Source: Chitinophagales bacterium
Lineage (GTDB): Bacteria > Bacteroidota > Bacteroidia > Chitinophagales > JADIYW01
DNA: 64,000 bases
Reading direction: 5' to 3'
Assembly: GCA_019694955.1 (NCBI GenBank)
Contig: JAIBAX010000015.1
Coordinates: forward strand, 1-64,000
Made by a program: the position numbers and the translations under genes. Shown here one piece after another: positions 27,833 to 46,822 of this stretch. Each line of letters opens with the position of its first letter. The stretch's first letter is position 1. Below the pieces are notes generated by a model, which was given only the letters and a program-made list of their open reading frames with translations, ran no database searches and had not been told where the DNA came from.

Positions 27833-27879
27833 CAAAACAACCCTCGAGGTTGAATTTTTCAACCTCGAGGGTTGTTTTG
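27833..27879. repeat. Large perfect palindrome: two CTCGAG repeats head to head (21-bp arms, 5-base loop)
   Basis: Left arm 27833-27853 and right arm 27859-27879 are perfect inverted copies; the loop is ATTTT. Each arm contains one CAACCTCGAGGGTTG unit. It sits centrally between two divergent genes and could form a cruciform in DNA. Confidence 0.95.
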
Positions 27880-45899: not shown

Positions 45900-46058
45900 A
45901 ATAAAATAAATGCATGCATTGTAATTTTTATGTTATGATAAGGCTAATTTTTGAGGATAGAAAAAATAAAATCCTTCATTTCGTGGAAATCCGCTGTTTT
46001 AGGTATCTATATATAGTATGACGTTGGAAGTGCGTCAAAAGTATATAATTATTCACCA

Positions 46059-46085
46059 GAGGTGGTCGCATTTTGCGACCACCTC
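46059..46085. repeat. GGTGGTCGCA hairpin, copy 1 (upstream of ORF6N gene)
   Basis: GAGGTGGTCGCA (46059-46070) and TGCGACCACCTC (46074-46085) form a perfect 12-bp stem with a TTT loop, ending 14 bases before the ORF6N start codon. Confidence 0.95.
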
Positions 46086-46099
46086 ATAAAAACTAGCGT

Positions 46100-46630
46100 A
46101 TGAACAATAACAAAGTAATGGCACCTGATGAAGTGATTATGAACAAAATTTTGGTCATTAGAGGGAAAAAAGTTATGATTGACATGGATCTTGCCGAGTT
46201 GTATGGGGTTGAAACAAAACGACTCAATGAGCAAGTGAAAAGGAATTTGAAGCGATTTCCAGAGGATTTTATGTTTCAAGTCAATCAGGAGGAAAAAGAA
46301 CAGCTAATCATCGGATTTCCTCATTTGAGAAATTTGAAATTTTCTTCAAAACTACCGTATGTTTTTACAGAATACGGTGCAGTAATGATGGCAAGCGTAC
46401 TCAATAGTGATCGTGCTATTGAAGTGAATATCCAAATTGTGAGAATATTTACCAGATTAAGGGAAATGGTTCTTACCAACAAGGACGTTCTTCATAAACT
46501 GGAAGAATTGGAAAGGAGAGTAGAGGGTCAAGATGAGAAGATTATAACAGTGTTTAGCTATTTAACACAGTATATAGCCGAACAAGAAACACCCAGAACA
46601 CCTATTGGGTTTAGAATTGGAGAGAAGTGA
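46100..46630 (+). CDS. ORF6N-domain DNA-binding protein, bracketed by hairpins
   Basis: A 176-residue protein whose N-terminal half is an ORF6N domain, a KilA-N-related DNA-binding module best known from phages: ILVIRGKKVMIDMDLAELYG at about 16-35, TKRLNEQVKRNLKRFPEDFMFQ, and LPYVFTEYGAVMMASVL at about 83-100. A helical, coiled-coil-prone segment follows at about 125-160 (DVLHKLEELERRVEGQDEKI), with a short proline-containing tail. Proteins of this kind are scattered through Bacteroidota genomes, usually alone. Here perfect hairpins lie 14 bases before the start and four bases after the stop, with a third 40 bases further on, so gene and hairpins look like one unit. No phage genes surround it. 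Whether it binds the hairpins is untested. Confidence 0.88.
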   Translation: MNNNKVMAPDEVIMNKILVIRGKKVMIDMDLAELYGVETKRLNEQVKRNLKRFPEDFMFQVNQEEKEQLIIGFPHLRNLKFSSKLPYVFTEYGAVMMASVLNSDRAIEVNIQIVRIFTRLREMVLTNKDVLHKLEELERRVEGQDEKIITVFSYLTQYIAEQETPRTPIGFRIGEK

Positions 46631-46634
46631 AAAA

Positions 46635-46667
46635 CTAGAGGTGGTCGCATTTTGCGACCACCTCTAG
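46635..46667. repeat. GGTGGTCGCA hairpin, copy 2 (downstream of ORF6N gene)
   Basis: A perfect 15-bp stem (46635-46649 with 46653-46667) and TTT loop, identical to copy 1 in its 12-bp core and starting four bases after the ORF6N stop codon. Confidence 0.95.
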
Positions 46668-46706
46668 GCTTGGCTAAATTCTTCAATCATAGACAGAGAG
46701 ATAATA

Positions 46707-46731
46707 AGGTGGTCGCATTTTGCGACTACCT
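46707..46731. repeat. GGTGGTCGCA hairpin, copy 3
   Basis: AGGTGGTCGCA (46707-46717) and TGCGACTACCT (46721-46731) with a TTT loop; one base of the right arm has changed (C to T), leaving a G-T pair in one strand. The next 90 bases to 46822 show no other feature. Confidence 0.9.
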
Positions 46732-46822
46732 CATTGGAGAAACACGGCATAAAAAGATAAATATTTATATTTAATCATAATTTCGTTTAAAAAATCACTA
46801 TTTTGCTCGAAAATAGGTCGAT

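Follow-up and report, generated by a model that had tools for sequence, protein, structure and literature searches.

At this locus three near-identical 27-bp palindromes flank a single ORF6N gene. The window, meaning the whole stretch of 64,000 nucleotides that was analysed, contains the gene at positions 46100–46630 on the plus strand. The encoded protein of 176 amino acids was assigned through a complete match to PF10543 (profile positions 1–86 of 86, E = 3e-31, 108 bits against a curated cut-off of 27.8). The Pfam search of this protein gave nothing beyond ORF6N and a sub-threshold pRha match; neither a nuclease or recombinase domain nor an HUH (Y1) transposase was found in it.

The ORF6N gene and its flanking hairpins

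The hairpin core, GAGGTGGTCGCA-TTT-TGCGACCACCTC, is found at 46059–46085 and 46638–46664, with a third version carrying two changes at 46706–46732. None of the palindromes is assigned to a strand. Palindrome 1 (GAGGTGGTCGCATTTTGCGACCACCTC, 46059–46085) is an external site upstream of the gene, its end 14 bases short of the start codon. The stem of palindrome 2 (CTAGAGGTGGTCGCATTTTGCGACCACCTCTAG), an external site on the downstream side, reaches 46635–46667 and begins four bases past the stop codon (46628–46630). Palindrome 3 is also external, spans 46703–46735 with its stem extension and has one arm–arm mismatch in the core. A hairpin set of this kind was obtained in 0 of 100 shuffles. On the minus strand a T run comes after palindrome 2, so that it looks terminator-like in that direction. 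This arrangement is as described in the initial annotation, which had also placed the nonamer AAAAACTAG on both sides of the gene; it lies at 46088–46096 and 46630–46638 and is a short two-copy match. The neighbours are genes for a thiolase, a SIMPL/DUF541 protein, an SDR and a 3-hydroxyacyl-CoA dehydrogenase, and no transposase or phage gene was seen adjoining the ORF6N gene, again as first described. Another strong palindrome of the window, at 27837–27875 (ACAACCCTCGAGGTTGAATTTTTCAACCTCGAGGGTTGT), is not of the CAnnnTG kind.

A palindrome at a fixed position within ORF6N genes

Most of the ORF6N genes examined contain a palindrome within the coding sequence, just 5' of a conserved ..LPYAFTE block. 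Its centre lies at HMM column 65 or 66 in 223 of 233 genes, a set whose class proportions are biased because it includes loci picked by the hairpin scan. The same holds for ORF6N genes from viral contigs, phages and plasmids, where 65 of 81 have a palindrome score of at least 9, nearly all of them at the same place. The palindrome is read in two codon phases that give unrelated peptides. One phase, TTG AGG TCG CAA ATT GCG ACC TCA, yields LRSQIATS (SQIAT), and the other, GAG GTG GTC GCA AAT TGC GAC CAC CTC, yields EVVANCDHL (ANCDH). The EVVANCDHL palindrome, present in genes such as L084, is the window hairpin except for the central triplet (AAT vs TTT). The window gene belongs to the EVVANCDHL subfamily and has no palindrome at that place, where it reads QLIIGFPHL; comparison with relatives, in which GAGGTGGTCGCAAATTGCGACCACCTC reads EVVANCDHL, marks 46301–46327 (plus strand) as a degenerate in-gene site.

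The in-gene palindrome is under selection at the level of DNA. Upon synonymous-codon resampling 82 of 90 genes were significant at 0.05, 69 of them at the limit of p = 1/201. A palindrome score of 10 or more was reached in 65 genes, compared with 0/90 when a control region of equal length was taken from these genes. Together with the two reading phases, the synonymous-codon null rules out that the palindrome is a by-product of the protein sequence. Stem positions change in pairs. Among the stem mismatches, GT/TG was counted 7 times and AC/CA 11 times, so that sense wobble pairs are not in excess, and the centre triplets are strand-symmetric (ATT 37, AAT 32). These two features indicate a double-stranded DNA site and not an RNA hairpin; a search of Rfam gave no match for the hairpin.

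Two in-gene palindromes lie adjacent in the same loop in L049, L063 and L081. A 4.1-kb plasmid of Segatella copri (L351) has just two annotated genes, one for a replication protein and one of the ORF6N family; the in-gene palindrome of the latter has an altered core (GAGGTTATCAAAAAATTTGATAACCTC) that keeps its symmetry.

Distribution of the palindromes

The palindromes are restricted in cis to ORF6N genes and their edges. When the window's own genome (4.1 Mb, 103 contigs) was searched with the pattern GGTGGTCGCANNNTGCGACCACC and up to 3 mismatches, four matches were obtained, three of them in the window; the fourth, at C17:42133, follows directly upon a second ORF6N gene, which lies on contig 17. 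Apart from the window gene, the genome has two intact ORF6N copies and a truncated one. At the level of the order, a PF10543 search of 199 genomes was used, from which nearly all copies were taken with their flanks. Palindromes with a CAnnnTG centre have a density of 1.39 per kb in the ORF6N genes of this set and of 0.75 per kb within 150 bp of them, falling to 2 in 72.5 kb at a distance of 151–500 bp; the 169 kb farther than 500 bp away contain none. An in-gene concentration of this sort is not seen for palindromes with other centres.

The initial annotation had proposed measuring the distance between hairpins and ORF6N genes, and had held that hairpins equally frequent away from these genes would mean chance association. 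They are instead confined to the genes and some 150 bp around. It had also reckoned with chance if ORF6N homologues regularly lacked flanking hairpins. Such homologues are indeed regular, but this is misleading because most ORF6N genes carry the hairpin within the coding sequence.

A scan of 84,980 GTDB genomes with a 27-mer query (R/Y at one position, free centre) gave at least 115 stretches with the window hairpin, in many phyla. Among the matches listed, 101 of 115 lie inside an ORF6N gene and 5 beside one, and 9 are without a detected ORF6N gene; by record title their sources include Proteobacteria, Bacteroidota, Acidobacteria, Nitrospirae, Omnitrophota, Verrucomicrobia, Spirochaetota and Elusimicrobia. 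The palindrome is thus not inserted in many unrelated genes, a few gene-less copies apart. Of the GTDB matches closely inspected, L164 is a relic of an ORF6N domain, and L166, L196, L219 and L221 (1331–1357) have a palindrome with no gene. The L221 palindrome lies between ligA and galU, where an ORF6N gene is present in the relatives L182, L201, L213, L216 and L230. The gene-less palindromes of L221, L196, L219 and L166 are located at the 3' end of another gene or directly past it; judged from the reading frames, these genes are ligA and those of a helicase, a protease and a cytochrome. Candidate readings for them are excision scars, decayed genes or landing sites.

Predicted structure and the base–residue code

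The AlphaFold2 model, built with 89 family members (mean pLDDT 86), folds into a compact domain in which one helix covers residues 39–48 and a long one residues 104–141. Structural comparison with VIA-align gave modest matches, the best of them with winged-helix and related DNA-binding domains: Ski-like 3eq5 (Z 7.9), Dachshund (Z 6.9), RacA with DNA (Z 5.4), HiNmlR (Z 5.2) and pSK1 Par (Z 5.2). For a MerR-like winged-helix fold, the matches to RacA, HiNmlR, CueR and Ski/Dachshund span Z 3.4–7.9. Foldseek against winged-helix proteins was also modest (E > 0.1), and a sequence search of the PDB with the ORF6N protein gave no match.

Covariation between the bases of the half-site and protein columns outside the palindrome-coded stretch was measured as mutual information with average-product correction. 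Half-site position 2 covaries with column 37 (z 17.2) and column 34 (z 14.0), and position 3 with the same two columns (z 8.0 and 5.0). Position 5 covaries with column 33 (z 7.8) and position 1 with column 41 (z 4.8). These strongest columns (33, 34, 37 and 41) all fall in one helix; the remaining notable pairs involve columns 77–78, which adjoin the palindrome-coded stretch. In the window protein the four columns are K40, R41, E44 and R48, covarying with half-site positions 5, 2, 2/3 and 1, respectively. Model and covariation together thus point to residues 39–48, encoded at 46214–46243 on the plus strand, as the predicted recognition helix. Residue–base correlation of this kind has been validated for MerR proteins, where it clusters in the recognition helix and overlaps known contacts (PMC5045206). 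The MerR family may further resemble ORF6N in its winged-helix-like fold; it differs in sequence family, and the ORF6N site lies in or beside its own gene and not in target promoters.

When cells with unpaired positions are set aside, the residue–base tables read as a nearly deterministic code. Column 37 pairs Q with A (92/94), E with G (82/83), R and K with C (18/18 and 7/7) and L with T (5/5). Column 33 pairs K with G (149/149), and column 41 pairs R with C (204/204) and N, S or H with A (9/9). When a tree was built with the helix and palindrome columns left out, position 2 changed its base 58 times, and in 56 of these a change in column 37 lay on the same branch, against 8.9 expected; the best other column has 5 same-branch changes against 1.2 expected. 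The same-branch changes and the control columns rule out shared ancestry as the cause of the covariation.

The code also predicts. After being fixed on 215 genes, the rule was applied to 89 held-out ORF6N genes from other sampled phylum genomes, of which 87 have an in-gene palindrome. Position 2 was predicted correctly in 83 of 85 (majority baseline 39%), position 3 in 81 of 81 (baseline 82%), position 5 in 65 of 69 (baseline 83%) and position 1 in 85 of 86 (baseline 98%). For the window protein, the bases expected from K40, R41, E44 and R48 are C at half-site position 1, G at position 2, C at position 3 and G at position 5. The window half-site reads A-C-G-C-T-G-G-T outward from the centre, and all three hairpins fit the code.

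External sites

Genes that have lost the in-gene site tend to have one outside. An external site is present in 6 of 9 genes without an in-gene site and in 25 of 165 with one (Fisher p 0.0012), and 3 of 174 genes have neither. For genes without an in-gene site, 10 of 11 external sites agree with the code, the three window hairpins included. Where the in-gene site is kept only 14 of 29 fit the gene's own code, and the proposal that external sites are always cognate to their own gene was rejected on this count. Some external sites may serve other paralogues or be relics. External palindromes (within 150 bp) at L378, L461, L482, L513 and L084 fit a code other than that of their own protein, suggesting cross-regulation among ORF6N paralogues. 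External sites are located upstream of the gene in 30 cases and downstream in 12. Those past the stop codon (in the window, L007, L074 and L152) are odd, as they ill fit simple repression.

A promoter-like element and the origin of the unit

A promoter-like element, TTTCGTGGAAAT..GTATCTATATATA, is found at 45979–46015 on the plus strand, and palindrome 1 lies between it and the start codon of the window gene. The element is common to the other intact ORF6N genes of the genome, standing before three intact copies; otherwise it precedes ssb, radC, comM, a DUF2851 gene and a 23S_rRNA_IVP gene, the last of which codes for a four-helix-bundle protein. ORF6N genes in other genomes of the same bacterial family have a variant of the element with equal spacing. 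In composite form it reads TTTCGTGGAATTT-N10-TGTATCTATATA at 45979–46015 of the window and near position 1501 of L514, L517, L519, L525 and L528. It may mark a putative competence-type regulon of this bacterial family; radC, comM and ssb belong to the uptake and transformation gene set of H. influenzae (PMC2689351).

In three relatives of the same family (L137–L139) the thiolase and SIMPL genes are directly adjacent, without an ORF6N gene or hairpin. The window holds about 820 bp extra, the ends of which are hidden by divergence, and this unit was either gained in the window lineage or lost in the relatives. Likewise, in an all-against-all comparison, homology between unrelated loci ends at about the gene, with divergence hiding the exact ends. 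The initial annotation had allowed that the unit might spread by some route; of this, acquisition at the window site is plausible because the unit is absent there in the three relatives.

Interpretation of the palindromes

The covariation, the held-out prediction and the external sites that fit the code strongly support the palindrome as the predicted binding site of the ORF6N protein itself, which the initial annotation had offered as one guess. There is a high probability that the palindromes are the protein's own cognate sites, probably bound by a dimer, with autoregulation their most likely use. The contact would most likely be made by a dimer of the ORF6N protein, using a winged-helix recognition helix (residues 39–48). 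In nearly all family members the site lies within the gene at a fixed codon; in the window gene it has decayed, with three external copies, one in the 5' leader and two past the stop codon, in its place. A dimer on palindrome 1 could then block transcription from the upstream promoter, by roadblock or repression. A roaming solo gene with the operator inside it would retain such a circuit at whatever site it reached.

Among the alternatives, self-recognition for transfer is tentative yet the most credible: the protein would bind its own gene for uptake, integration, copying or the silencing of incoming copies of the same specificity, as in an immunity group, and the site would then be a mark of the element instead of a promoter. 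As this shares the binding step with autoregulation, the likelihoods of the two overlap. Solo genes stand in unrelated housekeeping contexts, and the window unit is absent at the same site in three relatives; the promoter element is in common with ssb, radC and comM, genes of H. influenzae transformation (PMC2689351); paralogues within one genome differ in specificity; sites are tolerated in, before or after the gene; and phage and plasmid copies exist. However, no nuclease or recombinase domain was found with Pfam, element ends and a target duplication were not seen, the gene is retained vertically at ligA–galU in several Rhodocyclales, and the upstream bias of the external sites better fits regulation. 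Slightly more doubtful is the proposal that the genes are self-labelled, the gene itself being the target by which incoming copies are told apart as self or non-self when DNA is taken up or phages compete (immunity groups), and promoter autoregulation a by-product.

The remaining explanations are improbable. A hairpin acting in the mRNA, as attenuator, RNase site or target of RNA-bound autoregulation, would agree with a strong stem in the transcript and with a location in coding sequence or leader, but there is little chance of it given the wobble counts, the symmetric centres, the missing Rfam match and bases that covary with a helix of DNA-recognition type. An equally slight chance attaches to a role in partition or anchoring, with the protein's own gene holding a centromere-like site. 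The VIA-align matches to RacA and the DNA-binding domain of pSK1 Par and the predicted long helix recall such proteins, although the Z values are within the range of common folds and most copies examined are chromosomal and solo. Least probable is a REP-like mobile palindrome family with the ORF6N protein in place of the RAYT transposase. Near-identical palindromes do flank one gene and a few are gene-less, but the four sites in 4.1 Mb are each beside an ORF6N gene, the 169 kb beyond 500 bp hold none and no HUH nuclease was found. This distribution largely refutes a dispersed repeat, and with it the REP/RAYT analogy of the initial annotation.

Relation to known systems

Short palindromes flanking one gene are also a feature of REP/RAYT systems, from which the ORF6N case differs in that its palindromes are not dispersed, an HUH nuclease is lacking and the coding sequence usually contains the site. 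Rickettsia palindromic elements are protein-coding palindromes that form an in-frame part of the protein in more than one reading frame. The ORF6N palindrome is similarly translated in frame and in more than one phase; it differs in occupying one codon of one gene family, which self-binding would explain and scattered insertion would not. A further likeness is to repressors of the PurR type. E. coli PurR is reportedly an autoregulated repressor with an operator inside its own coding region, and both are DNA-binding proteins with a cognate palindrome inside their own gene. In ORF6N, unlike the PurR type, the site is family-wide, stays at one fixed codon across phyla, co-evolves with the recognition helix and has no other target evident.

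The window protein is an ORF6N member of what the available part of one account describes as a domain-swapping network of ORF6N, Bro-N and KilA-N phage regulators (PMC10111431), and that part does not describe an in-gene cognate site. A literature search on ORF6N with palindromes, on intragenic operators and on Bro-N with palindromes, outside which most subscription papers lay, returned no description, and no DNA target of the ORF6N family was found described. Autoregulation is a known kind of system; we could not find a description of a cognate site that is shared by a whole family, stays at one fixed codon, is read in two phases and extends across phyla and phages.

ORF6N is a large multi-phylum family of phages, plasmids and chromosomes. 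Nearly every one of its genes would reveal the target of its own protein, making specificity readable from sequence alone and switches of specificity predictable, and the hundreds of natural protein–site pairs form a data set for protein–DNA recognition. The question is raised why the only detectable target of a regulator should be its own gene. KilA-N genes were rejected as further palindrome carriers, with an in-gene palindrome in only 1 of 29, and the one pRha gene had none. Bro-N genes (PF02498) have an in-gene palindrome in 12 of 28 cases at p < 0.02, mostly near residues 60–90 (e.g. GTTTCAGTTGTCGACAAATTGTCGACAACTGAAAC); the carriers are L425, L428–L430, L433–L435, L437, L439, L444, L447 and L450.
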